Shown here: in pieces, positions 4,333 through 63,679 of the stretch
Layout of the letters: the number at the start of each line of letters is the position of its first letter
How positions within the stretch are numbered: the first letter of the stretch is position 1
Assembly: GCA_963971425.1 (NCBI GenBank)
Contig: OZ020515.1
Span: 15,950,291 to 16,014,290 of the forward strand
Direction: 5' to 3'
From: Bryoerythrophyllum caledonicum
Lineage: Eukaryota; Streptophyta; Bryopsida; Pottiales; Pottiaceae
Length of the DNA stretch: 64,000 bases
Made by a program: the position numbers and the translations under genes
The notes under the pieces: model-generated
Told to the model about the DNA's origin: nothing
Databases searched by the model: none
What the model saw: the letters and a program-made list of their open reading frames with translations, nothing else

Positions 4333-4637
4333 AGAAGAAGAAGAAGAACGTCGGTCTCCGAAGGAAGCCGACATGAATAAAATGTCTGTTCGTTCCACTA
4401 CTAAGACCATGCCCACCGGACAGGGAATTACTAAGTTGGAACTACTTTCCCCTTTCAAGGGTAGACACTATGTAATAAGTAGCCAAGGACCACAGAACCT
4501 ACCAACCACAAAAGAAACAAGGAAGGAAGCATGCGGGGAAGAGAGAGGGAAGAGAGAGAAAATATGAAGGGGAGGGAAAGATGGGGAGGAGGGTCTGTAT
4601 TGCGATTTCATGGATGAACTAAAATAAAGAGGAAGTT
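4333..4637 (-). other. 3' UTR and TTC tail of older LINE copy
   Basis: In sense orientation the tail ends with GACCGACGTTCTTCTTC and further TTC units. The block CATGGTCTTAGTAGTGGAAC is shared exactly with the younger copy's 3' UTR (about 11480-11500). Microsatellite tails instead of poly(A) are known in several RNase-H-bearing LINE clades. Confidence 0.8.
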
Positions 4638-5348: not shown

Positions 5349-5353
5349 TATAC

Positions 5354-8330
5354 CTTTACCGATCCATTTATAGTCAAAGATCTTTCCCAAAGAGCCAAAT
5401 ATTTTATTTCTTTCAAAGGGTGAGTAGATTTTTTTTAATTTGGTGGAGCATGTGACAGGGGAGGAGAATTATGATTGTTCGATGTTAAAGGATGAAATTA
5501 ATGAGTCTAGAATAGGTGTGAGTATTGTGTATTGTGCACTTTTGAGGGGATTATTTTTTGGGATGCGATATTTATATCTTTGGTATAGCCAAATTGATTC
5601 GGTTTCGAATGGTTGGGTTGCTGGTTCGATGTTTGTAGGAGTTTGTAGTTTCAAATTATATTGGTTCCATAGCCATTGGAGTCTAGTAGTGGGAATAGTG
5701 TGAAAATGCTGGCCATTTGCTTCATATAGGTGGGCTTGATTGTTCTCTATTTTAATTGTGTTCGAGATTGTGATAATATCTTTTTCGAGGTTACATTCCT
5801 TTGTATAGATGTTTAGGAGTGGGATGGTTATAGGTGGAATTACGGATCTTGAGTCTTGTAATTGTTCTTGAGGGTGGTGGGCTTGAATGATTTCCGAGTA
5901 GAATTTATTTTGGATTCTTTGATAATATTGTTTTAGTTTTTCGGTGTTATATATGGAGGTGTTACATCGTGTCTTGGAAAGAGGTTTCTTTGAGGGAGCC
6001 ATTTATTGAATGTGTTGTTGTTGTGTTGCCATTGGCATAAGTATTTTGTATAGGTATTATGTATTCTGTTGGTATCTATGTGTTGTATATGTTTATGTTG
6101 TATGATGTTATTAATGGGGTATGTGATGGGATTTTTGGTGATGTATGTTGGGGGCGGGGGTGGTATGGATATAAGAGGTTGAGAGGATGGATTGGTGGTA
6201 TGGTAGTTCTTGGGAGGATGTTGTTGTTGATGGTGATGAATGGGTCTTGGAGTATGTGGGAGTATGGGTGTATGTTTGCAAGGGGTATCACATGTGGTGG
6301 GGTATGTAGGATGGCAAAAAAGTTGTTTTGCAACATTTAGGGCGCTCTTGATTAGTTTGGATGGGGTGAAGTGGAAGGTTTTGAAGTTATTATTCATGAT
6401 GTGTGTGTCGTTGGGTAGAGTAATTTGTTTTAATTCGATTTTTTTTTTTGATAGGAGTTTGTATAAAAGTTTTTGGGAGAGTTGGGCATTGAGTGTGTTA
6501 TGGTTTTGTGTTTCTTGTTGCCATACTACTTCTAATGATGTGGCGTTAAAAAGGAAATTTGGAAGTGTACTTTTAAGGTGAGCTTTAGCTACGTGTTTTA
6601 ATTGGAATAATGTACGAGTTATTGGTGATCTTATACAGTCCGTTTTTTTAATTCTAGGTATATTGTCGGCACCACCGTATTGAGCAAGAACATAATGAGT
6701 TAGCCCATTATATATTTTTCCGAGCCTACCTTTGTCATTTAGGGCGTTTTGTAATTGTTCCCCTATACATTGTAGATAGGCATCTTTGAGGGAGAAAGCT
6801 TCAAGTCCAAATAGGTTATGTGGGAGTTGGATTATTGCGTTTAACATGCATTTGGGCATACCACAGATGGTTTTTTGTATGGCTATAATTTTTTGGTCAA
6901 TTTTTTTAATGGCTGGCATAGAGTATGGTACTGCGTAAAAGTTGTATGCTACGCCTGGGCGTATTACGGTGTCAACCATTTTAATTTTTTGTTTCATAGT
7001 GGCTGGGCATGTTGTTAATTCTTTGCATTGTTTAATGAGTTTTGTGGTCGTGGTGTGAGTTTGAATTTTCCATTTTAGAGAGGGGACAAGGTTTGTGCCT
7101 AGGTATACATATGATTCATTTTGGTGTAGTATGGGGATTGGTTGACTACGGTAGTTAATGTTAGAAGCTTGCATAGGGCTTTAAATGTAGTTGGGTTCAT
7201 TTTGGATTTGTTTGGGCATCTTGTAGCAGTGCATCTTGGGATGCCTACGTCCACACCAGTCCATTTACAATATCTATCAATTTTATCAATTTGTGTTTGT
7301 AATGATTTTATTTTGTTAGTTATAGTAGCAAGGTTGTCGGCATATGCAACGGAATTTATGGTGATTTGTGATGTACCAAAAGTATATCCATTATTGCCCC
7401 GCTCTAGCCATCTAAGTAGTGGCTCTAAAAATATAATGAATAGGTATGGACTAAGGGTGTCTCCTTGTATAGTGCCTCTATGGATTGGGATGAACTTAGT
7501 TTTACCAAAGTGCTCTCCGGTGTAGTAAGTAGATGATTGGGAGTAGATATTTCCAATTAGTTTAGTTGCATCTTTAGGGTAGCCAACATCAGTCATTATT
7601 GCTAATAGACGGGCGTGGTCTATAGAGCCAAATGCGTTTTTGAAGTCAACATATAAAACATATATGTCTTGATTTGTGAATCTTGCGTCTTCTAGTGGCG
7701 CTATTATAGTTTGTATTTGTCCAGAGGTACTTCTCTCTGCTCTAATCCTTCTTGGCTATCGTGTAGCATTTTAAATTTTTCACCATATGAGGATAATATT
7801 GAGGTAAGTGTACTGGTGTAGGGTTTATATATTGTGTTGGCTAATGCAATTGGTCTATGATTTGGTAGAATTGAGGGATCACCTTTTTTGTATAGTAAAA
7901 TTGTTGCACTTGTTTTCCATGAGGCACGTATTTGTTTTTGTTTACGACAATGAGAGAAGAATAGAAATAGTAATTTATTGAATCTTGGGGGCATGTGTTT
8001 AAGTATTGAATTTGGTATACGGTCTGGCCCTGGGGCTTTGTTATTTCCGAGGTTGTGGAGACATGTGTCATATATAGCTCTATTGAAATATGTGTAGTGG
8101 AATTTCGGGTTCGCCTCGTTTGTCTAAAGTAAATCCATCTAGGTCATGCCATGGGTATTGACGTACTGCACATGTGCATTCGGTTGGGTGTTGTGGTTGG
8201 TAGTTGCATGTTAGTACTGTGGGTCTACTGATTTTTGTCTGTTGGTTGAATATTTCGTTTGCTATGTCTTCCGGGCTAGTTAGAATGTTACTATATTGAT
8301 CAGTGATACAATCTAGTGGTCGAGTTTCTA
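5354..8330 (-). pseudogene. Reverse transcriptase remnant, older LINE copy
   Basis: Fragments in several frames (8071-7841, 7994-7704, 7596-7099, 7174-5933, 6002-5469) together cover the RT domain of the family. Recognisable blocks are TSATILLYKKGDPSILPNHRPIAL, QGDTLSPYLFIIFLEPLLRWLERG and the motif-C position INSVAYADNLATI. The active-site motif reads YADN instead of YADD, so the second catalytic Asp is lost. The C-terminal thumb and linker region follows to about 5470. Several frameshifts separate the pieces. Confidence 0.8.
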
Positions 8331-8339
8331 ATTTTTCAA

Positions 8340-9800
8340 AAACTTTTCTGTTTATTTTTTTAGGGCTAATTTCATATAATTGTCTGTATTTTGAAATGAC
8401 TTTTTTGATATTGTCTTTTGAGTATTTTGTAGTTATTTTCCGGGCTTGTATAATGGCATTTTTTGTGATTAGTGCAATGTCTTTTATCCATGTATCATGG
8501 GGAAGTTCCGGGGGAGGGGGTGGAGCAGGAATTTGGGTGTGGTTTAAAGCTAGTAGTTCGTTATTTATGGGATGATTACACCAGTGCGGGTTGTCTTTTT
8601 ACGGTTCTTATAGTTTTTTGTATTATATGGTATGTAGTTAGGTGTTGTTTCCATATTTTAGAAAGTTTACGGGGTAAATAACCTCATTGTTGTGATGTTC
8701 GATTTGTCATTTGTGGTATTGGTTGGGCTTTGCAAGTTTGTTCTACTGTATCAGAGATATTGTTGATGAGTGTATCTAGGCTGTAGCATGTTTTATGCCA
8801 TTGTGTTTGAGAGAGTTGATTATTATTTTTGAGTATGTTTATGAGAGAGTCAATTTGTGTGGAATTTTCTTCAAAGAACTTGGTGTTGAATTTTTCTAAG
8901 TTATCTTTTGGGATGGGGTTAAGTATGCGTTTAGTATTATTATTCGTGTTTATAGGGGTACGGCTTACTAATATGTTATTTGGGATGTGGAGTTATATGG
9001 GCGAGTGATCGGAGTTGAGAATAATGTCTTTGTTTGTTGTGGAGGTGTATTGTGTATTATTATTTGTGTTTATATAGAAGCCGTCTATTAGGCTCCAATC
9101 ACTGTAGTTATAGCCGCCTTGTCTAGAATATTGGGTATCAGTATTTATGTAGGTGAAGTTTAGGTTTTCTGTGAAGTGTCGCCATTGGTAATCTATGCTT
9201 TGAGGGGGGGGGTGGTATGATTTCCATTTTGTCTACCAATTAGTGCTATGTCTCTGTTGAAGTCTCCATAGATCAAGTAAGTATGATTTGGGTTTAAATT
9301 CATTTGGGATGTTATATTGTTTTGTATGTCTTGTAAATCTGGTATCTTCGGGGTGGGATGGCATATACATGTGAAAGATTAACCATGGTTGTAGTGGTTG
9401 ATTAGTAATTCTGATTATTTGAAGGTAGGGAGATATGTTCATTGGGGTAGGGATTTTTTTGATGTTGCATGGGAAGGCATATTTTTTGTGTATTAGAGTA
9501 AGGAGGCCACCGCGACCCAGTGTGTATGGTCTCCGTTGTAGGATGCATCTCGTTAGTGAATGTGTGTTATTAAATATAAGTTTATAGTCATGGAATATGT
9601 TTTGTATGTATTTTGTAGATTTTGTGGCTGATATTTTTGTTTCTTGAATGGTTATTAGGCCCGGTAGTGTTTCTGTATATGTGGTCAAAGTTTTTAAGCT
9701 GGGGAGAGCGGTGTTTAGGGATGATGCGTTCCATGTAATGATGTTTGTATTGTCGTTGTTTGTGCTAGTGTTTTGGTTTTGTGGGGGAAGATAGAGGGGG
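8340..9800 (-). pseudogene. APE-type endonuclease remnant, older LINE copy
   Basis: The fragment 9688-9233 contains LPGLITIQETKISATKSTKY, corresponding to the catalytic-Glu motif, and WLIFHMYMPSHPEDTRF. The rest of the domain is present but shifted in frame; for example a YSDWSLIDGFYI-type block lies at about 9075-9110. By analogy with APE-type LINEs, the intact domain would nick target DNA to prime reverse transcription. A poly-C run near 9795 shifts the frame relative to the preceding 2A-containing region. Confidence 0.75.
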
Positions 9801-9820
9801 GGAGGGGGTGGGTGGGTATA

Positions 9821-11163
9821 TTATGTTATGGGGTCTAAACATTTTAGTGTCTCATTGATTAGGTTGTTAGGAAAGTACGGGAATTTTTGTTTTAATGTGT
9901 CGTTTGAGGGTGGTATGATTTGTGTGTGTATGAAGTTGTATAATTCTTTGTGTATTGAGTGCTCGGGATTTATGATATTTTGATTTTCTTCAAGAAATTT
10001 TGTAAATGGGTGTGGGATATGGATATGTCTTTCGGATGGATTTTGTAAATTTGATAAAGTTTGTAATAGTGTATGTGTCCATGTAGTTGTGTTCGGGATT
10101 TGTAGGTTTAGAAGATGGTTACATTCATTTATGTTTGGATGGGTGGTTATTACTAGAGCATATAAAATGTGTGTTGGTGGATGAATATTTTGTTGTTGTA
10201 TGTATTGGGCAATATTTGGGTGTGTGGTGTTGTGTAAATGATGTAGTGCATGTGTTGTTTTTAAGAGAGGTGCATATGTTTGGGCTATGTGTTTGTATTC
10301 CGGATGCAGTTTTATGGTATTTGGTATACAATATATTTTAGCATTTTTCTTATGTGATGAGGGATGTGTTTTTAATATGTTAGGCATTGGCCCTGGGTTG
10401 GTTTCTATGTCTCTGCCTAGGAGTAGTAGGAGTTTTATGTGTTTGGATTTGGTGTTGTGTTTTGAAATTTTTGTTTTTTGTGTGGATTTTGGATGTTTCT
10501 TTCTGTTTTTGAGATTGTGTTTGTTTGAATGTGTATGTGTGTCTTTGGTTGGGTGTGTTGTTTTTGTATTTGTTTTTCTAGAAAATGTAAGGATAGTGAA
10601 TGCATAAATGTGTAGCATTGTATTTTTTCTTGTGGTTATGGTGTCTATTTTATTTTTATTGTCTATTTTGTGTGTGTTGGTTTTCTTGTGGGGCTTTTTG
10701 TTGGTGTTGATGGGATTGTGGTTTTTTTCATTAGAGTATATTGTGGTCTGGGTGTTGTTGCGGTTAACAAGGGTGTGGTTTGATTGTGGATGTTTGTATA
10801 GTTGGTGTGGTGTGTTGGATTGGTGTAGTATGTTTGTGGTATATGGTGTATTAATTTTGGTGAGTATGTGTTTGTGAGAGTGTGTGAGTGGGGGGAGGTG
10901 TCTAGCTTTTTGGGTGATGAGTATATGTGGTAGTGTAGTTTGTGATTGGTGTTTGTCTTTGCGCGGTATTGGGATGAGTGTGTTAGGTATTAGTAGTGTT
11001 TTATAATCTATTGGTAATGTGGTGTGAGGGTGTTTATATGTGTCACTTGTGGTCAATTGCTTTTGTTGTTGGCAAAGTTGTGGTGATATTTCATGTTTTC
11101 TGGCGTGTGGTATGTGTGTGGTAGTGGAAATTTTGGTAGTATGCCAATGCCATTGGCAATGTC
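9821..11163 (-). pseudogene. ORF2 N-terminal region with 2A-like peptide, older LINE copy
   Basis: Open frame rich in Thr, Asn, His, Lys and Pro. About 214 residues into the 11056-9821 part lies LLLLLGRDIETNPGP followed by MPNILKTHPSSHKK. After this comes a more ordered region (EYKHIAQTYAPLLKTTHALHHL to FPYFPNNLINETLKCLDP) that is conserved in the younger copy and leads into the endonuclease. The frame also extends upstream from 11056 to a single TGA at 11164-11162, and beyond it into 11165-11413 in the same phase. The Thr/Asn/His-rich part looks like a disordered linker. I know no function for the region between 2A and endonuclease. Confidence 0.75.
10388..10417 (-). other. 2A-like ribosome-skipping peptide, older LINE copy
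   Basis: The ten codons encode GRDIETNPGP, directly after a Leu-rich run (LLLLL). This fits the 2A consensus D(V/I)ExNPG|P, where the ribosome releases the chain after Gly and resumes at Pro. It would detach the N-terminal low-complexity part from the endonuclease/RT protein. Confidence 0.85.
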
Positions 11164-11403
11164 AAGAAGTGTGTATATTATAGTGGTGGTATTGATCACA
11201 TAACTTTGTCATAAGAGTTAGAGGAGCCCATGGGAGAGGTTGTGGCCTTCTCATGCGTTTATACTCACACGAATGACATGTGTGTACAAGAAAATACCTA
11301 TTGGAAGCTACAATAAGTTCTAGGGAGGTAGAAGGTGTAGAAGGAGTAAGGAGGGTTGTAGGTGTGTGGAGAGAACAATAATGAGTGATTATAGTGAGAT
11401 ATA

Positions 11404-11415
11404 TCACTAACAATA
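11404..11415. repeat. Target-site duplication of young LINE copy, left
   Basis: TCACTAACAATA here is identical to 24600-24611. Together they bracket the young LINE. The codon phase of the older copy's ORF2 is the same on both sides. Confidence 0.9.
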
Positions 11416-11696
11416 AGAAGAAGAAGAACGCTGGTCTCCGAAGGAGCCGGCGTGAATAAAGTGTCTGTTCGTTCCACTACTAAGACCATGCCCACAGGAC
11501 AAGGAATTAGTAAGCTGGAACTACTTCCCTCTCTCGAGGGTAGACACTGTGTAACAAGAAGCCAAAGAACCACAAATCAATCAACCGACCAACGAATCAC
11601 AAACCAAGCAATAAGCCAACAAACAAACCACAAACCAAGCAAGTAGTCAAAAATCTCAAAACCAACTAGTCATGAAAATCAAGGCGGGGGAAGAAT
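11416..11696 (-). other. 3' UTR and TTC tail of young LINE copy
   Basis: Non-coding end after the ORF2 stop. In sense orientation it ends CCAGCGTTCTTCTTCTTCT and then enters the target duplication. The last about 80 bases are shared with the older copy and with the tiny insertion at 51419-51500, so this is the conserved end presumably recognised by the RT. Confidence 0.85.
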
Positions 11697-13652
11697 TTAG
11701 GGGGGGTCCTGTGTATCGGGGAGGGCTCGGTTGTTTTCGATTTTGCGTTTATGTAGAAGAATGGACATGGCATGTTGGATAGCTATGGTGTTAATATTTT
11801 TAAAGGCGGTTTTAATTGTATCATTGGATATCTTGAAGGTGTCTTCTAGAGTTTTCATAGATGGGATAAAGGTGGTGGCCTGAACGCCGGCTGTGATTAC
11901 CATAAGGGGGTCGACATTCCATCCTAGGGCGATGATGTCGTCAATAACGGGTTGGTATTTGTCTATTTTGTTTTGGATTGTTTCCGGGGAAAATCTGTGG
12001 TTGCAATATGTGAATTCAATAAATTGAATGATGTAATCTTGGTTGACGTTATCGGGTGGTGGGTCATTATATGGTAAACCTTTGACACAAAGGATGTCCG
12101 GTTTGAGCCTAGCGTTGCAATGACATCTTTGGGTCGTACATGAGCATGGGAGTAGCCACGGGGGGACCGTATTTTCTTGTGGATTGTTATTAAAAGTGCA
12201 TGCGTTCATTAGTATAAAACATCTCGATTTATTGTAGGAGGTGATTAGTTTTCGGATTTCCCATACCGCTTTATTATGTCTTTTAACAATTAGGGAGTGT
12301 ATGTGGTGGTTTTGGCATTTGAGTAGAACATGTAGCCATGTGTCGGGGTCCGTTGAGGGGCATATGGGGCATGTTATGGATGGAAATCTTTCTATTCCAA
12401 AGAAGAGTTGTTTACGGGCGTTTCCCATGTATTGAACGGTACGGAATTTGATAAGGCATGTTATTTGTGAATCGGTGATGATGGGGTTTTTCCAAAAATT
12501 TGTAGAGAGGTCGTTGTCTATGTCGTTATTGTTAGTCCATTTTTCTATGTTAGGAATACTTTCTGAGATTGTATCCAAGTTGTTGTAGAGGTCTTGTTTT
12601 TTGAGGTATTTGCCCAAAAATCTAATTGGGCCTTTGTCAGGGGTATCTTCTTTGGAAGGCCATAATTCTTTTTGAAAGTAGTATGGGGTAGCATGGGCAT
12701 GTTCGTGTGGGTCTTTGGCATTTTTGTGTGTTTTTTCTCGGCCCTCTTTTGCTAATTTGTCTGCTTGTTCGTTGCCATCAATGTTGGCATGGGCTCTTAA
12801 TTTATGTAGGATTGTGATTTGTGTATGGTTTTGTAACATTTGGACCATAGATGTTAATATGATTTGATCGGGGTGACTACTATGAAGGGTAGGGTGGGTT
12901 ATTTGAGTGTTTAGTAGGTAAAGTGCATTTATGCAATCGGTGAATATGTGTGCGGGTGCATTGTTGTATTTTGTTGTGATGATATGTAGTGTTTTGTGGA
13001 TGGCCATGAGTTCTGCTCTGAGGATATTTTGTAATCCATGGAGTCTTTTGGCTAGTTTGATTTCCTTGGTAGAATTATATATGCCATAGCCAGCTTTTTC
13101 TCTGCGCCAGGAGCCCGGGCTAATTTGTTCGGGTAGTTTAAAGGAGCCATCAGTGTAGTAGCTGTGTGCGGGGTTGAATTTTGGTGTGGTATGAGTTGAG
13201 TAGTCTGGAAGAGGGGGTGGTGTGACGGAGTAGTTTATTGTGTTGTTGACATAGTTTAGTTTTGACCAGTTTTTACTTTTGTTTACAGGGGTTTGTGTGG
13301 GTGTTGGTGGGGCTAGTTTTATGTATGGTCGCTGTATGTCTAGATTGTCTGTTATGGAGGTGAGTTCCGCAATTTGTTCGAGGGAGCCAAGGGTTTGGTT
13401 TTGATGATGGACGCATAGTATTTGTAATGTAGATGGCTCGAATTGGGGTTTTTTTAGCTCGGGTGGAATAGTAGATTCTTCGTATGGTATTGTGTCTGCT
13501 TCAAATAATGTAATGATATGGGAATCTGGGAATGGATTTGAATGTGGGTTGTTGTTTTGGTACCAATTGTTATTCGGTTTGATGATGTTTATATTTGTGT
13601 TGTTTGGATCTTGTTTGGCGGCAAGTCGAGCCCAATGTATTGCTTGTTCCAT
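11697..13652 (-). pseudogene. ORF2 C-terminal part: RNase H, CCHC knuckle, C-terminal domain
   Basis: This open segment of 651 codons is a piece of ORF2 shifted in frame from the RT. RNase H starts near residue 160: YYTDGSFK (Asp), then ELMAIHKTL (Glu), FTDCINAL (Asp, about 235) and HANIDGNEQADKLAKEG (His/Asp, about 285), so all catalytic carboxylates are present. Near residue 420 is CPICPSTDPDTWLHVLLKC, a C-x2-C-x9-H-x4-C zinc-binding pattern, followed by RHNKAVWEI. A conserved domain ends the protein (DPLMVITAG to RALPDTQDPP). The part itself looks undamaged; it counts as a pseudogene because it is separated from the RT by a frameshift. Confidence 0.85.
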
Positions 13653-14979
13653 ATCTTTCTTGTTGTGGGGGTGAGCTATACCATTGCCGATCCATTTATA
13701 GTCAAAGGCCTTCTCTAGGGATCCGAATACTTTGTCTCTTTCATAAGGTGAGTAGATTTTTTTTAGTTTGGTAGAACATGTGACCGGGGAAGAAAAATAT
13801 GATTGTTCAATGTTAAAGGATGAGATTAGTGATTCTAAAATGGAGGTGGGTATTGTGTATTGTGCATTTTTTAGAGGGTCAGTTTTTGGTATTCGGTATT
13901 TGTATCTTTGGTATAACCAGATTAGTTCAGTTTCAAAGGGTTGAGTCTTTGGTTAGATGTTTGTGGGGGTTTTTAATTTTGTATTGTATTGATTCCATAA
14001 CCATTGAAGTCGAGTAATGGGGATGGTGTGTAAGTGTCGGCCATTTTCTTCATATAGATGTGCTTGATCGTTATCTATTTGAATTATGTTTGAGGATGTA
14101 AGGATATCTTTTTCGGGGTTGCATTCTGTTGTGTAAATGTTTAAGAGTGGGATAATTATGGGAGGTGTTACAGATCTTGAGTCTAAAAGTTGTTCTTGTG
14201 GGTGATGGGCTTGGATGATATCTGAGTATGTTTTGTTTTGGGTTTGTTGGTAGTATTGTTTTAGTTTTTCGGTGTTATGCGTGGAGGTATTAGTGTCGTG
14301 TCTTGGAAATAGGTCTCTTTGGGGGAGCCATTTATTATATGTGTTATCATTGTATTGCCATTGGCATAAATATTTTGTGTATGTGTTTTGTATGTTATTT
14401 GTGTCTATGTGTTGGATATGTTTATGGCATATGATGTTATTAATGGGGTATGTGGTAGGGTTTTTGGAGATGTATGTTGGGGGGCGGGGATGGTATGTAT
14501 GTGGGGGGGTTAGGGGGGTTGATTGGTGTGAGAATATTTCTTGGGGTGATGTTATTATTGAGGGTGATGAATGAATCTTTAAGTATATGCGAGTATGGGT
14601 GTATGTTGCAAGAAGTTTGACATGTAGTGGGGCATGTTGGGTGACAAAATAGTTGTTTAGCAATGTTAAGGGCACTTTTTAATAGTTTGGTTGGGGTGAA
14701 GTGGTAGATTTTGAAGTCTTCATAGTTCATGATGTGTGTGCCGTTAGGTAGAGTAATTTGGGTTAGTTCAAAAATATTTTTTGAGAGGAGTTTTTGAAGA
14801 AACTTTTGGGAGAGTTGGGCATTGAGTGTGTTGTGGTTTAGTGTTTCTTGTCGCCATAATGTTTCAAGTGTTGTAGGATTAATGAGGAAGTTTGGGAGTG
14901 TGCTTTTAAAGTGGACTTTGGCTATATGTTTTAATAAGAAGAATGTTCGTGTTATTGGTGATCTTATACAGTCATTTTT
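13653..14979 (-). pseudogene. ORF2 linker between RT and RNase H, frame-broken
   Basis: After the stop that ends the RT frame, homology continues in three frames, for example SPITRT-like and FHFTPTKLLKSALNIAKQLFCHPTCPTTCQTSC (14730-14640), then SRSVTPPIIIPLLNIYTTECNPEKDI and ITRLQWLWNQYNTKLKT (14200-13970). The Cys/His-rich piece near 14600-14660 may be another zinc-binding spot. At least one stop and two frameshifts interrupt this region compared with the older copy. Confidence 0.65.
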
Positions 14980-16749
14980 TTAAATTCTGGGTATGTTTTC
15001 GGCGCCACCGTATTGGGCAAGGATGTAATGAGTTAATCCATTGTATATTTTTCCAAGTCTACCTTTATCGTTTAAGGCATTTTGTAGTTGTTCTCCTATA
15101 CATCGGAGATATGCGTTTTTTAGGGAGAAAGCTTCAAGTCCAAATAGGTTATGTGGGAGTTGTGTTATTGCGTTTGACATACATTTTGGTAATCCACATA
15201 TGGTTTTTTGTATGGCGATTATTTTTTGATCAAGTTTTTTAATGGCTGGCATAGAGTATGGTACTCCATAAAAATTGTATGCCACACCTGGGCGTAGTAC
15301 GGTATCAACCATCTTTATTTTTTGTTTCATGGTGGCCGGACGTGTTGTAAGTTCTTTGCAGTGTTTGCTGAGCTTTGTGGTTGTAGTGTGAATTTGGATT
15401 TTCCATTTTAGTGAGGGAACAAGGTTTGTACCTAAGTATGTGTATGGTTCGTTTTGGTGTAGTATAGGGATTGGTTGGTTGCGGTAGTTGATGTTAGAGG
15501 TTTGCATTAGGGCTTTGAAAGTGGTAGGTTTCAATTTAGATTTATTTGGGCATCCGGTAGCAGCACATTTTGGGACTCCCACATCCATGCCAGCCCATTT
15601 ACAATATCTATCAATTTTATTGAGTTGTATTTGGATTGATTTGATTTTGTTAGTTGTGGTGGCTAGGTCATCCGCGTATGCGGCGGAGTTTATTGTGACT
15701 TGTGATGTGCCGAAAGTATATCCGTTATTGCCTCTTTCAAGCCATCTAAGTAGTGGTTCTAAAAATATAATGAATAGGTACGGGCTTAGGATGTCCCCTT
15801 GTATAGTTCCTCTTAGGATGAGTATAGGTTTTGTTTTTCCAAAGTGTTCACCGGTGTAACAGGTAGATGATTGAGAATAGATGTTTCCAACAAGTGTAGT
15901 TGCCTCTTTTGGGTATCCAAGGTCTGTCATTATTGCTAGAAGTCTGGCATGGTCAATTGAGCCAAAGGCATTTTTGAAGTCCACGTATAGTATGTATATA
16001 TCTTGGTGAGTAAATTTAGCGTCTTCTAGTGCGGCTATTTTAGTTTGTATTTGTCGTGCGGTACTTCTCTCCGTTCTAAATCCTTCTTGACTATCATGTA
16101 GGATTTTGAATTTTTCGCCGTATGAGGATAGTATGTGGGTGAGTGTACTGGTAAAGAGTTTATATATTGTGTTAGCTAGTGCAATTGGTCTATGATTGGG
16201 TAGCATGGACGGATCGCCTTTTTTGTATAGTAAAATTGTTGTGTTTGTTTTCCATGAGTTTGGTATTTGTTTTTGTTTATAGCAGTGAGAGAAGAATAGG
16301 AATAGTAGATTATGAAATCTTGGAGGCATGTTTTTGAGTATTGAGTTTGGTACGCGGTCTGGGCCTGGGGCTTTATTATTTCTTAGATTTTGAAGGCATG
16401 TGTCGTATGTGGCTCTGTTGAGGTATTTATATGTTGGAATTTCTGGTTCTCCCCGTCTGTCAAGGGTATATCCGTCCAAGTCATGCCATGGGTATTGGCG
16501 TACTGCACATGTGCATTCTAATGTATGTTGTGGTTGGTAATTACATGTTGGTACTGTTGGTCTATTGGTTTTTGTTTGTTGGCTGAATATTTCATTCGCA
16601 ATGTCTACGGGACTAGTTAGAATATTATTATATTGATCTGTGATACAATCCATTGGTGGGGATTCAAGGTTTTTAAAGACTTTTTTGTTGATTTTTTTGG
16701 GGCTGGTTTCGTATAGTTGTCTGTATTTTGATATGGCTTTTTAAATATT
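14980..16749 (-). pseudogene. Reverse transcriptase domain of young LINE ORF2
   Basis: The main open part is 16653-14980 (557 codons). RT motifs occur in order: NNKAPGPDRVPNSIL, TTILLYKKGDPSMLPNHRPIAL, motif A ILYVDFKNAFGSIDH (catalytic Asp, about residue 220), motif B GTIQGDILSPYLFIIF and motif C INSAAYADDLATT (YADD, about residue 324). The catalytic triad is intact. Just upstream, two TAA codons lie in the same frame as the endonuclease (16752-16750 and 16743-16741), where the older copy reads through with Asp and Lys. Another TAA ends the segment where the older copy has Lys (PRIKKTDCIRS). Confidence 0.9.
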
Positions 16750-18162
16750 TTATTTGGTGTATTTTGTGATTATTTTCCGGGCTTGTATGTTGGCATTTTT
16801 TGCAATTAGCGCGATATCGTTTATCCATGTATCGTGGGGAAGGTCCAGAGGCGGCGGGGTAGGGATTTGGGTGTGTTGTAGAGTTAGTAGTTCATTGTAT
16901 ATGGGGTCGTTACGCCATTGAGGGTTGTTTTTTACAATTCTAATGGTTTTGCGTATGGTATGGTATGTGGTTAAGTGTTGTTTCCAAATTTTTGAGAGTT
17001 TGCGAGGTAGGTACCCGCCTTCTTGAGAAGTTCTATTTGTTATATGAGGTATTGGGTGTGCTCTACAAGTTTGTTCTAGTGTATCAGAGATTTTGTTGAT
17101 GAGTTTGTCTAGGGTGTGGCATGCTTCTTGCCATTGTGTTTGTGTTAATTGACTATTATTTTCAAGAGTGTTTATGAGGGAGTCTATTTGTGCGGAGTTT
17201 TCTTCGAAGAATTTTGAGTTGAATTTTTCTATGTTGGTTTTTGGGATGGGGTTGAGTATGCGTATAGTGTCTTTGTTTAGGATTATAGGAGTTCTACTAA
17301 TTAGTGTGTTATTTGGGATGTGCAATTGTACGGGTAAGTAGTCTGAGTTGAGGATAATATCTTTGTTTGTTGTGGAGGTGCATTGTGTATTGTTGTTTGT
17401 ATTTATATAGAATCCATCTAATAGACTCCAATCACTATAATTGTAGCCACCTTGTCTAGAGAATTGTGTATCAATATTGATGTAAGTGAAGTTTAAGTTT
17501 TCTGTGAAGCGGCGCCATTGGTAATCAATGTTTTGAGGGGGGGTGTGATGGTTTCCATTTTGGCAGCCAATTAGTGCTATGTCTCTGTTGAAGTCTCCAC
17601 ATAATAGATATGTATGGTTGGGATAATTATTAATTTGGGATGTAATAGTGTTTTGTATATCTAAGAGAAATCTAGTATCTTCGGGATGGGATGGCATATA
17701 CATGTGAAAGATTAACCACGGTTGTAGTGGATGATGAGTGATTTTAATTATTTGAAGGTATGGTGATATGTGCATTGGGGTAGGGATTTTGTTGATGTTG
17801 TCTGGGAACGTATATTTTTTGTGTATTAATGTAAGGAGGCCACCGCGGCCCGATGTGTATGGTCGCCGTTGTTGTATGCATCTTGTAAGTGCATGTGTAT
17901 TGTTAAAGATGAGTTTATAGTTTTGGAATATATTTTGTATATATTTTGTAGATTTTGTGGCGGTTAGTTTTGTTTCTTGTATAACTATGAGGGCTGGTGG
18001 CGTGTCTGTGTTTGTGACTAAATTTTTTAAGCTAGGAAGGGCAGTGTTTAGTGAGGAGGCATTCCATGTGATTATGTATGTATTTTCTTGGTTTGCTCTA
18101 ATGTTTTGATTTAGAGGAGGGATGTAGGGAAGAGGTGGGGGTAGGTGGGTGTATTCTGGCAT
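16750..18162 (-). pseudogene. APE-type endonuclease domain of young LINE ORF2
   Basis: The 470-codon segment is in the same frame as the RT. Exonuclease/endonuclease/phosphatase motifs are present: TYIITWNASSLN (Asn), ALIVIQETKLTA (Glu, about residue 60), LIFHMYMPSHPED, YLLCGDFNRDIAL (Asp/Asn, about 186), NYSDWSLLDGFYI (about 244) and NSDYLPVQL, where the usual SDH triad reads SDY. The last third (LPRKLSKIWKQHLTTYH to IQARKIITKY) links to the RT. The domain would nick the target strand. The 12-bp duplication around this element fits such target-primed insertion. Confidence 0.9.
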
Positions 18163-18721
18163 AGGATCTAGACATTTTAGTGATTCATGTATGAGGTTGT
18201 TAGGGAGGTAAGGGAATTTTTGTTTTATTGTATCATTTGAAGGTGGTGTGTCTTGACTATGTAAGAAGTCGTATAGTCTTTTATGTATTGATTTCTCATG
18301 GTTTATAATATTTTGGTTGTCTGTCAGGAATTCAGTATAAGGGTGTGGAGTGTAAATGTGTCCTTCTGGTGGGTTTTGTAAGTTTATTAAAGTTTGTAGG
18401 AGTGTATTGGTCTATGTAACTGCATTCAAATTTTGTGGATTTAGAAGAAGGTTGCATTCATCTATGTTTGGATAGGTAGTGATTATTAGTGCATATAAAA
18501 TGTGGGGTGGTGGATGCGTATTTTTTAGTTGTATGTATTGGGCGATGTTTGGGTGGGAAGTGTTGTGTATGTGGTGTAGTGTATGTGTGTTCTTGAAGAA
18601 AGGTGCGAAGGATTTTGCAATGTGCTCATATTCTGGTTGGAGTTTTATGGTATTAGATATGAAGTATATTTTGGCAATTTTTTTTTTGCGTTCGGGGGTG
18701 TCTTTTTAGTATATTAGGCAT

Positions 18722-18751
18722 GGGTCCGGGGTTGGTTTCTATATCTCCTCC
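18722..18751 (-). other. 2A-like peptide number 2, young LINE
   Basis: The ten codons encode GGDIETNPGP after a run of five Leu. They fit the 2A consensus and lie directly before MPNILKRHP, as in the other two sites. Confidence 0.85.
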
Positions 18752-18948
18752 TAGAAGTAGTAATAGTTTGTTATATGTATGTTTTGTGTTGTATTTTAAC
18801 ATTTTTCTTTTTTGTGTACTAGATTTTTTAGGCTTTGTTATGTTGTTATGGTCTTGTTTGTTTCGGGGGATGTGGATGTTTTTATTTTGTATGTGGGTAA
18901 TAAATGTTTTGTTATTGATTTCTATAATGGGTGTAGTTGAGTTTATTT

Positions 18949-20007
18949 TTAACTTTTTTTTTGTGCCCATGTGTTTATTAGTTTAGTGGTTGTTGTTTTA
19001 TTAATGATGTATAGGTGTGTGTATTCTTGTTTGTATATTTTTGTGGTTGCGTTTGGTTTTGTGTGTCTGTGTTTATTGGGTGTAAAAATATTTATATATG
19101 AGTTTGTGTTGGTATTTGCGGGGGTTTTTAAGTCATTGTTGTGGCAATGGTTAATAATAATAATAATAATAATTTTTTGGTGCGAGGCGGGGTGTCTTTT
19201 TAGTAAGTTTGGCATGGGTCCTGGGTTAGTTTCTATGTCTCCTCCAATTAGTATTATTATTTTGTGGTAGGTGGGTTTTTTGTTTTGTTTTAGGTTGAGA
19301 TTTTTTTTGGTTTTTGTATGTGGTTTTGGTATTTTATTATTTTTTTGTTTATTTGATTGTATGTATTCTTCTTTGAATGAGTGTAAGTCTATGTTTTTTT
19401 GATGGTGTGAGGTTGGTTTTGTATATGTGTGTGTGTATGTAGTTGTATTTGGTTTTATATTAGTATTCATACATATGTTTGTATTGGTATGTGTCTTTAT
19501 TTTTGTCTTGGTATTTGTATCCATGTTCGTATCAGTATTTATGTTAGTATTTGTATCAGTATTTGTACCAGTATTTGTATTATTATTTGTGTCGATTTTT
19601 ATAAAGTTCATTGGAGTATTGGTACCAGTATATGTTCCAGTGTGTTTAATATTGTACGTACGAGTATACTTAATAGTATACATATCAGTATACACCCCAG
19701 TGTATTTGCCTTGGTACGTATCATTATATGTGCTACTGTACGTATCAGTGTGTGTATCGGTATTTGCACCAGTAGATGTACCATTATATGTAGCGGTATA
19801 TGTACTAATATTTGTAATTGTACAGCAGTATACATGTATGTATTTGTATTTATCATCGAAGGAGATATAGTGTAAGTATTGAATGTCTAGTTTTGGTACT
19901 ATTTTGTAGTGTATATAGGTAGTAACTAGGCGTATTCTACTGCGGTCGTATTTTATGCAATACGGGTGGGATATTGAGATATTGGCCTTGAGGTTGCTGT
20001 CCTTCAC
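18949..20007 (-). CDS. ORF2 5' segment with first 2A peptide, young LINE
   Basis: Frame of 352 codons beginning at a GTG that overlaps the ORF1 stop (ATGTGA context). No ATG lies between the preceding in-frame stop and that GTG, so expression would need re-initiation, a non-AUG start, a frameshift from ORF1 or an internal Met. Residues about 75-200 are a degenerate Thr/Tyr/Asn/Asp repeat. At about 255-264 is ILIGGDIETNPGP followed by MPNLLKRHPASHQK. The frame closes just after an A9 run, where the frame bearing the second 2A takes over. No known domain is visible besides 2A. Confidence 0.55.
   Translation of the reverse strand: MKDSNLKANISISHPYCIKYDRSRIRLVTTYIHYKIVPKLDIQYLHYISFDDKYKYIHVYCCTITNISTYTATYNGTSTGANTDTHTDTYSSTYNDTYQGKYTGVYTDMYTIKYTRTYNIKHTGTYTGTNTPMNFIKIDTNNNTNTGTNTDTNTNINTDTNMDTNTKTKIKTHTNTNICMNTNIKPNTTTYTHTYTKPTSHHQKNIDLHSFKEEYIQSNKQKNNKIPKPHTKTKKNLNLKQNKKPTYHKIIILIGGDIETNPGPMPNLLKRHPASHQKIIIIIIINHCHNNDLKTPANTNTNSYINIFTPNKHRHTKPNATTKIYKQEYTHLYIINKTTTTKLINTWAQKKS
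18952..18962 (-). other. A9 run joining two ORF2 frames (possible -1 slippery site)
   Basis: In sense orientation the context is GCA CAA AAA AAA AGT TAA. The zero-frame codons allow a canonical A_AAA_AAA heptamer. A -1 slip there leads into the frame carrying the second 2A. A simple indel in the homopolymer would look identical. Confidence 0.5.
19216..19245 (-). other. 2A-like peptide number 1, young LINE
   Basis: The codons encode GGDIETNPGP preceded by a hydrophobic IIILI stretch and followed by MPNLLKRHP. It uses different codons (ACT, CCA, GGA) from peptide number 2, so the two sites are not a very recent exact duplication. Confidence 0.85.
19420..19870 (-). repeat. Coding low-complexity Thr/Tyr/Asn repeat in ORF2
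   Basis: Sense-strand sequence built from short ACA/TAC/AAT-rich units encodes strings such as TYNDTYQGKYTGVYTD and TNTGTNTDTNTNINTD. The plus strand appears as long Val/Phe/Cys-rich open frames that are only shadows of this repeat. The older copy has a different Thr/Asn/His-rich stretch at the same place. Confidence 0.75.
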
Positions 20008-22373
20008 ATTTTTGACGAGTCTTCTTCAATCAAGATGGATGGTTTGGACCCCGTGATGTTTTGCAACATTGCGAAGGTAGTGCCAACACATTCTTGGATC
20101 TTCAACATTTGGTTTTTGATTTCTTGGAGCTCCTTAGCTTTTGCCTCCGCTTGTTCTTTGACTTCTTGTCGCAAAATTTTGTTGTTTGCCTCAAATGCCT
20201 CCGCTAGGTCCTTCTTGGTGATGGTTTGAGACGGGTTTTGAAGTTTGAAGGTCTCCACCGTGTTGATGATGGCTTTGTTGATGTCTTCAAAGCCAAACTC
20301 TATGAGTTGAGCTTGGGTAGGGGGCTCAATTCCATCAATGCTCCTCCTATGAGGGGCAAACTCCACAAAGTGGCCTTCTATGGGAATGGTTTTTCCCACA
20401 AACGTCCTATATACAATTGGGTTAGCACACGCAACATTTGCACTTCCGTTATGGCAAACACCATTGTCTTTGTGAAACCAAATGGAGCAAATGTTAGATT
20501 CTCCTACAATCTTGTAGATAGCACTAGTAGTCTCATTAACATTCATTAGTATGGGGAGATGGGAGAGAGTAAGGGTGAGGGCATCTTTCTTAGCCTTCAT
20601 TTCCTTGGAAATGTGAGTTCCTCCAAGGAGCTTCTTTGTTTGCATGATTTCTTGGCGTGCGGTTACTTGTAGTTCTTGGATTTTCTTGGCTTGTTGTGGT
20701 GTGGTGGTCAAAATGAAGGCAAATCCATCCTGTTTTGCTTTCTGCACGTTAGTCACTTCGAAATCATGCCCACGTTTGAAGCTAGACTCAAGGACCTCTT
20801 TGAAGAGGTGGTTAACGGTAATGTTATGCAAGGAGGGACTTTGTATTTTAACCGAAATGCTAGAATGATGAGCAATGCCATGATAGGTTTTACATACCTT
20901 TCCCACCACGTTAGTCGCATCAATTTTGAGGATGAAGGGTCTAATCCCCTTGAGGAGGAGTAAACCATCAATTTCAGGTTTAGCATGATGCAACTTGATA
21001 AGTCCAGACCATACACCTTTTATCCTCCCTCCTTGTTTGATACTTAAACAATGAATGGAGATTGGTTCAATGAGTTTCTTACCGAGAGGGATGTCCATGT
21101 CTTTGAGTCGGTTAGTAACCATCATTTTGACTTCATCATGCAACATAGGATTAGTAGGTAGTTCAAAGTGAATAGCAATTTGAAAGTCAAGAGCCAAGCC
21201 CGTACCTTCGTCTACAGGGATGTTGGTGGGCACTTGGGTAAGATTGTAGTATTGTCCTCCAAGGCCTCCTGCTTCACGCGAATGTGGATAGTGGATCTGT
21301 GGGATGCGTGGAAAGGCTATCCTTGCTTGTTTGACTTCTTGAGCTTCGCTTTCCTTAAGGCCTCTGGTCACCATGTCTTCAATTGTTTCCTCGTTGAGGA
21401 GTTCATCTAATCCCTCTTCCAGTGCTAGCTCCTCCATCACATGGAAACCGAGCCAAAACTTGAAACAACTAATCTCGGGGATAGTGATGAGAGCCGTACC
21501 TTCTTTCCCCTTGTTCTCTTCCGGAATAGGCTTTTGTTTTTTGCTAGCAGATGCTTCTCCATGTTGATGTTTCTCCATTTGCTTTCCTTGAAGCCTCTTG
21601 AGACTTTCGCTAGGGGACTCAATCTCCATGTGGTCTACATAGTTGAGGGCTTTCTTTGCACTTCGCGTGTCCATATCTGCCCCTCCCCAATTTATTACAA
21701 CTACTAATGTGCACTGGTTAGTCAGGGGAAGGGTGGAGTGACTTACCTTGAGTGGGTCGCTGGAGGGTTGTTGAAGCTTGCAGGGTCTGTAGGTGAGATT
21801 GGTTTGTTGTGGAGGGGGGATAGGAGGTCGCTGTGGGAGTGTGGTAGGTCGTTGGGAGGTTGTATTAGGTCGTTGGAGGGGTTTAGAGGGTCGCTGGGGG
21901 GATTGAGTAGGTCGCTGGGGGGGTTGGGTAGGTCGTTGGAGGGAATTAGCAGGTCGCTGTTGTTGTGTATTGGGTCGCTGAGCTGTAGGTGGACGTTGGG
22001 AGCGGGTGTGTGAGTTGGAGGCAGGTTGCCTTATGTCTTGATGCCTCCCTTTTGTTGGGGCACTCCAGTTCAGCCTTGCATAATGTGCTTGTGGTGGACG
22101 TCCTTCGGTGCGTGGACTGTGTCTTGCCTGAAGTCCCTTTGTGTTGTCTTGATGTACGTCCCGAGTGCTGTTGTACGTCCTCGCCTTGTATTCTTGCTTG
22201 CTACACCTGCGAGTGTCTCTGCTTTTTGTGCGTCTGATGATGTATGCTTCTTGTTGTACTTGTGCTCGTCTTTCAATGTCTTGCGGGGTTCGTGTATGTG
22301 TCAGGTCATAGGTGTTCGGGGTTGGAGTGGGTGTATGACTCTTGGGTTCTTCGTTCCTGGTTCCGTGCTTCAA
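20004..22373 (-). CDS. LINE ORF1 protein (putative RNA-binding/chaperone)
   Basis: Open frame of 789 codons. The first about 230 residues are low-complexity, Arg/Gln/Pro-rich and contain a repeated QRP-type motif; a more conserved protein may start at MDTRSAKKALNYVDHMEIES (about residue 234). From about 290 on, the sequence is globular and shared with the older copy: FWLGFHVMEELALEEGL, PRIPQIHYPHSREAGG, GGQYYNLTQVPTNIP, ALDFQIAIHFELP, WSGLIKLHHAKPEIDGLLLLKG, VCKTYHGIAHH. The C-terminus (about 715-765) is a charged heptad region that may form a coiled coil, as in L1 ORF1 trimers. I recognise no named domain. The stop overlaps the start of the ORF2 frame, suggesting coupled translation. Confidence 0.75.
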   Translation of the reverse strand: MKHGTRNEEPKSHTPTPTPNTYDLTHTRTPQDIERRAQVQQEAYIIRRTKSRDTRRCSKQEYKARTYNSTRDVHQDNTKGLQARHSPRTEGRPPQAHYARLNWSAPTKGRHQDIRQPASNSHTRSQRPPTAQRPNTQQQRPANSLQRPTQPPQRPTQSPQRPSKPLQRPNTTSQRPTTLPQRPPIPPPQQTNLTYRPCKLQQPSSDPLKVSHSTLPLTNQCTLVVVINWGGADMDTRSAKKALNYVDHMEIESPSESLKRLQGKQMEKHQHGEASASKKQKPIPEENKGKEGTALITIPEISCFKFWLGFHVMEELALEEGLDELLNEETIEDMVTRGLKESEAQEVKQARIAFPRIPQIHYPHSREAGGLGGQYYNLTQVPTNIPVDEGTGLALDFQIAIHFELPTNPMLHDEVKMMVTNRLKDMDIPLGKKLIEPISIHCLSIKQGGRIKGVWSGLIKLHHAKPEIDGLLLLKGIRPFILKIDATNVVGKVCKTYHGIAHHSSISVKIQSPSLHNITVNHLFKEVLESSFKRGHDFEVTNVQKAKQDGFAFILTTTPQQAKKIQELQVTARQEIMQTKKLLGGTHISKEMKAKKDALTLTLSHLPILMNVNETTSAIYKIVGESNICSIWFHKDNGVCHNGSANVACANPIVYRTFVGKTIPIEGHFVEFAPHRRSIDGIEPPTQAQLIEFGFEDINKAIINTVETFKLQNPSQTITKKDLAEAFEANNKILRQEVKEQAEAKAKELQEIKNQMLKIQECVGTTFAMLQNITGSKPSILIEEDSSKM
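21740..21990. repeat. GGTCGCTGGGGGG-type minisatellite in ORF1 5' end, young LINE
   Basis: About nine degenerate units of roughly 24 bp, containing GGTCG(C/T)TGGNGGG on the plus strand, encode the QRP repeats of ORF1 on the minus strand. A similar GGTCGCAGGG array lies at the matching place in the older copy (27060-27270). Confidence 0.8.
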
Positions 22374-24599
22374 TGGTGTAGCTCCAGGTCTTTCCCTCCT
22401 GCTGCCGCGTTATCTTCTTTTGTGTGACAGGGCTTCTGCTGCTGCTGATGCCCTTGTTTCAGGTGACGTGGTGTTGGGATGAACTGTACCTTGGTGCTGG
22501 TGTTCTTCTACCTGATCTGCATGGAGAAGAGAGGATCTTGTGACGTACCTTTCGACGATCTCTGGTGAGTATGTTGCTTTGGATCTGTAGCCGTAAGTTA
22601 TCGTGGACGTTGCATGTTGATGATGTGGTTGTTTTGGTCTGCAGGATGGTAGTCTGGATGCGGGTCTCATGGCGGTTTTTTCAAATCTCTGGGAAGGTTG
22701 ACAGTATTTCTGCAGGGCATACGCAAGTCTAGATCTAGAAGAAGGTTGTTTACTAGAGATGTTAGCTTGTATACAACTGCTTTTCGTATATTGTGTGAGA
22801 TTTTTAGGGTTAGTACGTAGTTAGATTTTTGGTCTAGCTTGTATAAGCAATGAGTATACGAGGAGAGGATGTTAGGATAATCATGAAGTAGATGTGCACT
22901 GAGGTAGGAAGGGCGGAACCTGATTGTGGTACGAGGTGGTCGCTCGTTCTGTGTGGGCGTTATAACTCCTTTTGCCTTCTTCTCGTGTGATCTTAGTGGC
23001 TTCTTGCCTGGTTGACTTTGAATTGCTGCTGACACACATTCGCTGCAAATGGTGTAAGAGAAAAGAGTGGAGGGAGGATAGAGGAGGGGAACATGTGGTA
23101 TGGATCTTCTTGGTGTGGCGCTTGGTTTTCGTCGCCCTTGTGCTGTGTGTTGTCTCAGGTCTTGGTGTTGGGTTTGCGGTATCTGGTCCTGTTCATGTGT
23201 ATGCCCTGTTGCAGCTAACACACATACATTGTGGTCGATGGAAGAGGAAAGAGTTAGTGGAGGGTAGGGGAGGGGAACCTGTGGTATGGATCTTCGTGTA
23301 GCGTGTGCTTTTGGTCGCCCTTGTGCTGTGTGTGTTGTGTGTTGTCTCAGGACTTGGTGTTGGGTTTGCGGTTCCTAGTCATGTTCATGTGTATTCTCTG
23401 TTGCAGCTAACACACATTCACTTCGGTCAGTGTAAGAGGAAAAAATTAAGGGAGGGTAGAGGAGGGGAACCTGTGTTGTCGATCTGCTTTGTATGTCGTA
23501 TGGATCTTGTCGTTCTTGTATTGTGTGTTGCGTCGTGTCTTGATGTTGGGCTTGCTGGTCGGGGACGTTTTTCTGTGTACTCTCTTTTGCAGTACGTGTT
23601 TGCTCCCAGTCTAGGTACTGTTGTTGTCTTTTTTGCTCCTTGTCGCGTGTGTTGCCTGTCACGGTTCTTGCGTATTCCCTGTTGCAGTTTGTGTCTAGTC
23701 CTTGTTGCTTCGGAGCTTGCTCGTGTCTGACCTATGCACAGCTTGTACAGTTCGTAAAATATTTGCAATTTTTTTGTTTTAGTTGTCTGCAATAGTGTTG
23801 AGTGCAATGGTGATTGTAAATTTTTTGACAGCGCTTCCGCGTGATTTTTTTAGATCTAACTATACTAAGATATTGTTTTAAAATGTGGTAGTGTTCTTGT
23901 TGTTCTTCTAACGTGTTATTAGATCTTTTTTGTTGTTGATATTGATTAGAATGTAAACTATTAGGACTAGGGGATTTGCTAAAGTTTTGTGAATCTAGTC
24001 TAGTGGTGAAACCTAGTTGAAATTGTGTGCTTATCATGGGGTATCTAGTGGTAGTTTGAAAAAAGCCAACATAAAGCAAGAAAAAGACTATGCAAAAATA
24101 AGAGAGAGGGTTGAGGGAAATGCGTAGCTCAAGAGTAGGCAGTGAAGGCGCTGATTGCAGCTCGTATTGATCTTCTTGCTCCAGCTTTGTTAGGTTGATG
24201 TTTCTGGATCTGGCTTGCCTTGGGAGTTTGTGTATGAGCTATGTACGTATATCTTTCTATGCTATCAGATCTACCACTTGTTCTTCCGATCTGGGTGAGG
24301 TTCAGACCTACTTGCCCAACACTTAAAATTCCAGCTCTACACAAGACTTGCAACAAGATCTTGCAACTAAGCACACTCTCACATCCAGAAGGTTTGCACG
24401 GGTAGATCTGACTAGCATAACCCCTCTTCCAACACTTCACGTCTTTCCCAAGCTCATTCACTTCTAGATCTGGAGTAAAGGTGGGATCATCAACAAGCCC
24501 AGCACCCCTTGATGCCCTCTACTCAAGATCTCTGACTAACTCCCAAAACGCCCCTCACCAGAAAACTCGGAGCTCCTTAGTTCTCCATCTCGCACTTGT
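22374..24599 (-). promoter_or_regulatory. Long 5' UTR/promoter region of young LINE
   Basis: About 2.2 kb upstream of ORF1 without a supported gene. It contains the about 188-bp tandem units at 23028-23592 and, near the 5' end (24130-24500), many AGATCT/GATCTG motifs. Non-LTR elements carry an internal promoter at their 5' end, so this is the expected place for it. Short open frames here (22670-22410, 23221-22667, 24461-24129) have no recognisable domains and I do not call them genes. Confidence 0.6.
23028..23592. repeat. About 188-bp tandem repeats in LINE 5' UTR
   Basis: Three diverged units start at 23028, 23214 and 23406, each with GC(T)GACACACATT or GCTAACACACAT, then AAGAGGAAA and AGAGGAGGGGAACCTGTG, CTTGGTGTTGGGTTTGCGGT and CTGTTGCAG. 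A shorter fourth relic follows to about 23690. Tandem 5' monomers recall the promoter monomers of rodent L1. Confidence 0.8.
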
Positions 24600-49531: not shown

Positions 49532-49535
49532 TTAA

Positions 49536-50324: not shown

Positions 50325-50328
50325 TTAA

Positions 50329-51192: not shown

Positions 51193-51196
51193 TAAC

Positions 51197-52074: not shown

Positions 52075-52078
52075 TTAA

Positions 52079-53535: not shown

Positions 53536-53580
53536 TTTTAGCTCAAAAATGAACCTTGTAATAAAAACTAATTTTATGTA

Positions 53581-56396: not shown

Positions 56397-56456
56397 TACA
56401 AAGTTTTTAGATGACCCTATTCATTGTTGATACTAGGACATGTACAATGTTGATAT

Positions 56457-63676: not shown

Positions 63677-63679
63677 TCA

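Follow-up and report, generated by a model that had tools for sequence, protein, structure and literature searches.

2A-type peptide sites in ORF2 of an abundant LINE family with an unusual domain composition in the moss Bryoerythrophyllum caledonicum

Two LINE copies and three 2A-type sites at the locus

Analysis of a 64-kb stretch of the genome of the moss Bryoerythrophyllum caledonicum (contig OZ020515.1, positions 15,950,291 to 16,014,290; the window) revealed two related copies, A and B, of a long interspersed nuclear element (LINE), a non-LTR (long terminal repeat) retrotransposon whose second open reading frame (ORF2) contains sites of the 2A (StopGo) type. Self-alignment placed both elements on the minus strand at about 80% identity, copy A extending from a 3' tail at 11414 up to ORF1 at 20007-22409 and bearing two 2A sites, and copy B covering about 4332-11161 and bearing one. 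Six-frame translation of the window gave four NPGP sites, of which exactly three match the strict motif D(V/I)ExNPGP, all on the minus strand and all reading DIETNPGP: the first, upstream site of copy A (19216..19239), its second site (18722..18745), which is followed by MPNILKRHP, and the site of copy B (10388..10411), which is followed by MPNILKTHP and preceded by R, not G. Each strict site has a Leu/Ile run before it and an MPN(I/L)LK(R/T)HP block after it, in agreement with the initial annotation, and the strict motif occurred in none of 60 order-3 Markov simulations of the window. The three sites of that annotation are therefore present, but they belong to two elements and not to three.

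The two copy A sites lie 494 nt apart in different frames, and both seem to belong to copy A, because a single ORF1 and a single enzyme region flank the two, and the sequence around one is a 65% copy of that around the other. Elsewhere in the genome, two same-strand pairs of sites are separated by 510 nt, which is a multiple of three (C1:6319947/6320457 and C1:44910457/44910967, among the matches listed on scaffold C1). Copy A is decayed, with an in-frame stop 23 codons past the NPGP of the 18722 site.

Regarding the layout of copy A, ORF1 is an 801-codon frame (20007..22409; conserved part from about 21461, ATGs at 21674 and 21629) whose end is overlapped in -1 phase, by 19 nt or by 22 counting the stop codon, by an open low-complexity leader (18949..20025) that holds the first 2A. 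Further downstream are an APE-type endonuclease domain (17341..18072; Exo_endo_phos 5e-5, 23.6 bits, below the cut-off of 24.5) with an altered SDH motif, the reverse transcriptase (RT; 15424..16215; RVT_1, Pfam 4e-28) with YADD, a PCIF1-like domain (13629..13949; Pfam 5e-7, 29.8 bits, below the cut-off of 31.1) with HPH in place of NPP, an RNase H domain detected by Pfam (12738..13163; D-E-D-H-D present), a CCHC zinc finger with an RHN motif (12273..12371), the core PD...E...K..KY of a putative restriction-like endonuclease (RLE; 11955..12101) and a 3' end consisting of a hairpin followed by (TTC)n (11414..11453). Copy B retains an open frame of 446 codons spanning leader, 2A and post-2A region (9821..11161), while its remainder (4332..9820) comprises the APE domain, the RT, the C-terminal part and the 3' hairpin with (TTC)n (4332-4374); about 1.26 kb matching 12409-13673 of copy A is missing from it.

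The stretch 13956-14678 (minus strand) of copy A, from the RT to the PCIF1-like domain, has a weak resemblance to a chromodomain (14307..14399), which was not adopted or claimed given the Pfam Chromo value of only E = 0.15. Located 5' of the ORF1 of copy A is a second, broken ORF1-like sequence (24985-26227, minus strand) that shares 44-51% identity with that ORF1.

Conservation of the motif and of the enzyme part

The pattern G-D-I-E-T-N-P-G-P-M-P was encoded 679 + 641 = 1,320 times in the 437-Mb assembly and the reversed pattern not once. Among the matches listed (the first ~100, all on C1), 28 distinct versions were sampled, with synonymous differences at every codon except Met, the residues being fixed by the search pattern itself. 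The region around the 2A has at least 150 matches at at least 147 loci on 13 large and two small scaffolds, and at least 75 scored RT copies are present in the genome, of which one is that of the window and the other 74 listed are 93-95% identical; the open frame reaches at least 2,380 codons in 36 of the 75 RT copies listed and at least 3,400 in 12. An identical frame of 2,809 codons is shared by 14 of the listed 2A-region matches, 13 of them with the same score, which points to recent mobility.

Conservation of the motif was assessed in 32 sequences (18 loci hand-picked from the at least 147, ten long copies, one young copy and the three window sites; 28 of them distinct), which were gathered with the filter D.E.N.GP followed by MP, so that the filter residues are constant throughout, all 32 having passed; degenerate upstream 2A sites were left out of the counts. 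At the free positions of the core in the 28 distinct sequences, Ile is present in all 28, the variable residue x is Thr in 27 and Ala in one, and 24 retain the first Pro of NPGP, whereas positions -19 to -9 are mostly variable; the MPN.L..HP residues that follow are as conserved as the motif. Broken cores were found in four of the 18 loci (NLGP twice, NRGP and NSGP), and all four have an in-frame stop within 210 codons upstream, as compared with three of the 14 other loci (Fisher p = 0.011). The motif is thus kept in frame at the protein level in the sampled copies, as the initial annotation required of its proposal. Among outside relatives, 23 proteins match the region, with NPGP in 20 and the strict motif in 19.

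The enzyme part of ORF2 was investigated in ten long-frame copies read in their genomic context and chosen for their long frames among the 75 RT copies listed. The distance from the motif to the stop is 2,348-2,350 codons in nine of the ten and 2,236 in copy c2c, and the order of domains after the 2A is APE endonuclease, RT, PCIF1-like domain, RNase H and a CCHC/RHN/PD-E-K end. The motifs of APE, RT, RNase H, CCHC, RHN and RLE occur at near-constant spacing in all ten, with two exceptions, namely c15, which has no SDHSP motif, and c2c, which has none of the last two RLE motifs. The expectation that the 2A would lie in ORF2 of an RNase-H-bearing land-plant LINE was borne out (RVT_1 and RNase_H by Pfam, together with the strict motif), as was its position between a low-complexity leader and the endonuclease; the two are not directly adjacent, however, since about 225 codons with no convincing Pfam match separate the 2A from the first endonuclease motif. 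The PCIF1-like domain, the RLE motif set and the continuation of the open leader frame to ORF1 go beyond what had been described.

Pfam detected the APE domain above cut-off in two of the relatives (P0124 and P0018). In pairwise comparison with sequences in the PDB, the RT scored best against three R2 entries (105-107 bits), followed by human L1 (67-68) and by 8gh6 and 8ibw (53-57); as these last two, which we take to be R2Bm, score below human L1, the scores do not point to one closest group for the RT. RNase H was detected by Pfam in 51 of 52 sequences, and its active-site His is present in 48 of the 51, the other three having Tyr or Gln. The PCIF1 family PF12237 matched 21 of the 52 sequences at E <= 0.01, and a profile of the PCIF1-like domain searched against the PDB had two PCIF1 entries as its top matches (E = 0.0098 and 0.016). 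The catalytic motif of PCIF1 methyltransferases is NPPF; at the NPP position the moss sequences have HPH, with Asn in none of 27 and His in 26 of 27, so that, on alignment, the domain resembles PCIF1 in sequence only and lacks the catalytic motif. A literature listing for PCIF1 together with retrotransposons and a methyltransferase domain gave, in the portions of text it displayed, two papers on RNA modification.

At the C-terminal end, setting aside rows gapped at the position concerned, the Asp of PD is conserved in 31 of 32 aligned sequences, the Glu in 30 of 32, both Lys in 30 of 30 and the His and Asn of RHN in 35 of 35. A profile of this end searched against 177,635 PDB sequences placed 8gh6 first, at CCHC-RHN only and at a value that is not significant (E = 0.41). 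The ratio of nonsynonymous to synonymous differences (pN/pS) is 0.23 over the whole post-2A enzyme alignment and 0.08-0.11 at its C-terminal end. Purifying selection acts on the enzyme part of ORF2, the C-terminal end of which is a constrained domain with motifs that read like those of a putative R2-type restriction-like endonuclease, RHN/PD-E-K being presumably the signature of such enzymes.

Regarding the 3' end, each of the ten long copies terminates with a hairpin, which is perfect in most, and (TTC)n; the two together are the probable recognition end for the RT. The hairpin of copy A is imperfect, and the stem of copy B has one paired change and one G-U. An 81-nt copy of the LINE tail (51418-51498, plus strand) is flanked by a duplicated target site, about 10 bp long and with a single mismatch, as judged against uninserted paralogues at 46447 and 50102. 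The surrounding repeats form a separate family, about 78-91% identical (45869-46584, 49524-50327, 51193-52078 and 62604-62970), one copy of which carries this insertion.

The leader, ORF1 and the role of the 2A

The leader is 1.2-4.3 kb long in open copies, with a maximum of about 1,400 codons. For ten copies (nine long ones, c8a being omitted, plus the young one) we counted the stop codons that lie after the ORF1 stop and before the 2A. Nine of the ten have none in the ORF2 frame, whereas each of the other two frames has 95-148 in the long copies; in the young copy these two frames have 21 and 13. The possibility that the 3.2-4.3 kb before the 2A are untranslated was rejected on these frame-specific counts. 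In all ten tabulated copies, including the window and representing about seven distinct 5' types, the ORF2 frame is in -1 phase to ORF1 and overlaps it by 16-175 nt. Thus, in long copies, the frame is open from the end of ORF1 through a weakly constrained leader to the 2A. In the 130 codons before the motif, 15 of the 18 loci have no stop and three have 1-5. Although the ORF1s otherwise diverge, a recurrent YCAAAC is situated no more than four codons from their stop, the equivalent being ACAAAC in c9 and TCAAAA in the window (~20004-20020).

The ORF1s themselves are diverse. The window ORF1 is 42-55% identical in amino acids to those of genome copies, and 35-36% to those of c7a and c4a; Pfam found nothing above cut-off in five ORF1 frames. 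Over their last 500 codons, ORF1s of unlike type share 31-69% identity, and at the DNA level the same copies match at 95.5-98.2% between the late leader and the 3' end (5500-14500 in the joined stretches). ORF1 is nevertheless constrained, with ratios of 0.19-0.38, pS being near saturation in most pairs; the pair c2b-c4b has a ratio of 0.96, and c4b is frameshifted. Upstream of the 2A, a fossil site DMETNPRPMPN is found in the two copies read along their full length, GELEINPGP in four of the ten long copies, and 123-nt tandem repeats (a multiple of three) of varying copy number in the leaders of c7a, c4a, c2c, c2b, c4b, c7b, c15, c9 and c8a, at about 4850-5700 in joined coordinates. Because divergent ORF1s stand beside near-identical enzyme DNA, and given the fossil and upstream 2A sites and the pattern of constraint along the leader described below, the comparison suggests that the 5' part has been repeatedly replaced and that the constant part begins at the 2A.

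Judged from the sequences, the DIETNPGP sites are real, abundant and conserved 2A sites in a plant LINE of unusual composition, and the best explanation, which we consider likely, is that an abundant, recently mobile non-LTR family carries them in its ORF2 as working-type 2A (StopGo) peptides, which would free the enzyme from ORF1 and the leader. In the mechanism proposed, ribosomes would pass from ORF1 into the ORF2 frame in -1 phase and read the leader; at the 2A the Gly-Pro bond would be skipped, releasing ORF1/leader-2A, and the enzyme APE-RT-PCIF1-like-RNase H-RLE would be made as a separate protein always starting with Pro-Met-Pro-Asn. The 2A may in this way shield the enzyme from a long, repetitive 5' part that is often swapped between elements, and integration would proceed by target-primed reverse transcription with the 3' hairpin and (TTC)n tail. 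The fuller version, in which the family is a dual-endonuclease plant LINE with the 2A as an insulator, with a -1 shift from ORF1, a kilobase-long weakly constrained leader, a 2A that resets the N-terminus of the enzyme and free exchange of ORF1 and leader, is advanced tentatively, at slightly less than an even chance. If it holds, ORF1/leader modules would be exchangeable, even with fossil 2A sites in them, with no harm to the enzyme, and natural use of 2A would be encoded in a plant genome at more than 1,000 sites.

Several observations weigh against these proposals. Copy c2a has one stop in the ORF2 frame of the leader and no overlap with ORF1, although it is in the same -1 phase, and c8a has no recognisable ORF1. 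A classical slippery heptamer X-XXY-YYZ was sought in the ORF1/ORF2 overlap and not found. The openness of the leader is partly selected, since the long copies were chosen for long frames, a bias that the young type and the 18 loci lessen only in part. Among the 23 outside relatives, one has DTAHNPGP, one has NPGR and two have no motif, although one of the latter (P0134) is called only from MPN onward. The 150-codon stretch beginning 30 codons before the motif has a pN/pS of 0.63 in ten young copies, the highest in the enzyme alignment, and constraint is therefore seen at the motif but not across the whole stretch. In the leader, pN/pS is 0.24-0.53 in the last ~244 aligned codons and 0.64-0.74 beyond them.

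This last difference is also what would be expected if the 2A is active and ORF2 starts at its own Met in the leader, 100-170 codons before the 2A, so that only a short N-terminal peptide is removed and ORF1 is not involved, an alternative that we regard as possible but rather unlikely. In the trypanosome element L1Tc, a short 2A-bearing N-terminal peptide is removed. Further points in line with such a start are a Met at -169/170 in all ten long copies, an SA(Y/S)RPR block about 100 residues before the 2A that is common to many relatives and often follows a Met, and the state of c8a noted above; the frame is, however, open upstream of any such Met to the end of ORF1, the first Met of the tabulated copies lying 47-135 codons after the opening of the ORF2 frame, an interval in which each of the other frames has 1-10 stops.

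An improbable alternative is that the octapeptide is conserved as a linker or protein contact with no skipping. Skipping itself is a prediction, and the equal conservation of the following MPN.L..HP would fit a structural role, but the conserved set follows a hydrophobic run and agrees with the core expected of 2A/StopGo peptides, (D/G/C/N)(V/I)ExNPGP in frame between coding parts, in which x varies (here T, P, S, L or A), and such cores skip in viral and sea-urchin contexts according to the portions available of PMC12846837 and PMC4981915. That the family is a contaminant or viral insertion and not a plant family is very improbable in view of its distribution over 15 scaffolds of an assembly with 58 light-harvesting-family matches, and searches of viral contigs, phages and prokaryote genome contigs gave no relative. 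For one light-harvesting (LHCII) protein of this assembly the top PDB match is 9vfj_2, in two stretches, and the best match in a single stretch is 8htu_U, which carries the label PpPSI-L in PMC10005731, Pp standing for Physcomitrium patens; this fits a land-plant host, most likely a moss. A chance match or single odd copy is refuted by the simulations and by the genome-wide counts for the pattern and its reverse.

Comparison with known elements and other features of the window

Non-LTR retrotransposons bearing a 2A have reportedly been found in trypanosomes (L1Tc) and in animals. Regarding the literature, the excerpted text of PMC11512398 names NOD-like receptors as holders of 2A alongside virus families and non-LTR elements. 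A 2026 survey covering nearly 10,000 viral StopGo sequences (PMC12846837) cites 2A in non-LTR elements and, in the sections available, states that 2A works in plant cells but found no sign that plant viruses use StopGo naturally, and a sea-urchin 2A is described as active in plant cells in the part available of PMC4981915. No report of a 2A in a plant LINE was present among the titles and abstract openings listed, a search outside which lie Repbase and most subscription papers, and absence from print is not claimed. The moss family shares with the trypanosome and animal elements a D(V/I)ExNPGP in a protein with an APE-type endonuclease and an RT, and differs from them in its land-plant host, in having a leader that reaches ORF1 and is as long as about 1,400 codons, and in its tandem and fossil 2A sites, RNase H, PCIF1-like domain and RLE motif set. 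LINEs bearing a 2A are thus already known, and what appears to be new here, on the basis of the motifs, is a predicted 2A in a land-plant LINE of this composition.

Dualen elements have a cysteine protease. In the moss family no protease was detected by Pfam in the window pieces, the five ORF1 frames or the 24 sequences of set A2, although remote homology is possible. Dualen/RandI elements (Kojima and Fujiwara, 2005) have both an APE and a restriction-like endonuclease as well as RNase H, as described in the portions available of PMC4640811 and PMC3636483, and are reported from green algae and cryptophytes in those of PMC8226300 and PMC12747079; for RandI the tails (ATT)n and (CTATTT)n are listed (PMC3747384). 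Like them, the moss family has an APE domain upstream of the RT and RNase H, its RLE being putative; unlike them, it has no detected cysteine protease and its tail is (TTC)n, and neither a 2A nor a PCIF1-like domain is mentioned for Dualen in the excerpted descriptions compared. The moss LINE resembles the dual-endonuclease plan of Dualen, a likeness drawn from motifs and descriptions, and it is a candidate member of the group. In trees, Dualen/RandI RTs lie between the early (RLE) and late (APE) branches; the moss RT was compared with R2 and L1 entries by the pairwise PDB scores given above.

Plant L1 elements with an APE and an archaeal-type RNase H have Arg in place of the active-site His (PMC4640811; PMC5348765; passages available), and the moss family is likewise a plant LINE with APE and RNase H, but its RNase H keeps His rather than Arg and it has the CCHC-RHN-PD-E-K end. 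In R2-type elements a CCHC finger is followed by a C-terminal RLE (PMC10499050, in the section available), an arrangement matched in the moss family by its CCHC finger and putative C-terminal RLE, alongside the best RT matches to R2 entries in the PDB; in contrast to R2-type elements, it has an APE domain, RNase H and two ORFs.

The conservation of the 2A at the protein level just ahead of the enzyme domains suggests that plants, too, have natural genes in which a single reading frame gives rise to two proteins. The family may offer a native set of plant 2A peptides and a test case for the expression of LINE ORF2, and it might connect APE elements with RLE elements in land plants.

Regarding other features of the window, Rfam at the gathering threshold found nothing in it. 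An open frame at 281-946 (plus strand) reads, by inspection, like part of a PIF/Harbinger-type transposase. An inverted pair (53543-54157 and 55818-56430), 94% identical, contains tandem repeats of about 178 nt, and a long imperfect palindrome is present at 63549-63914.

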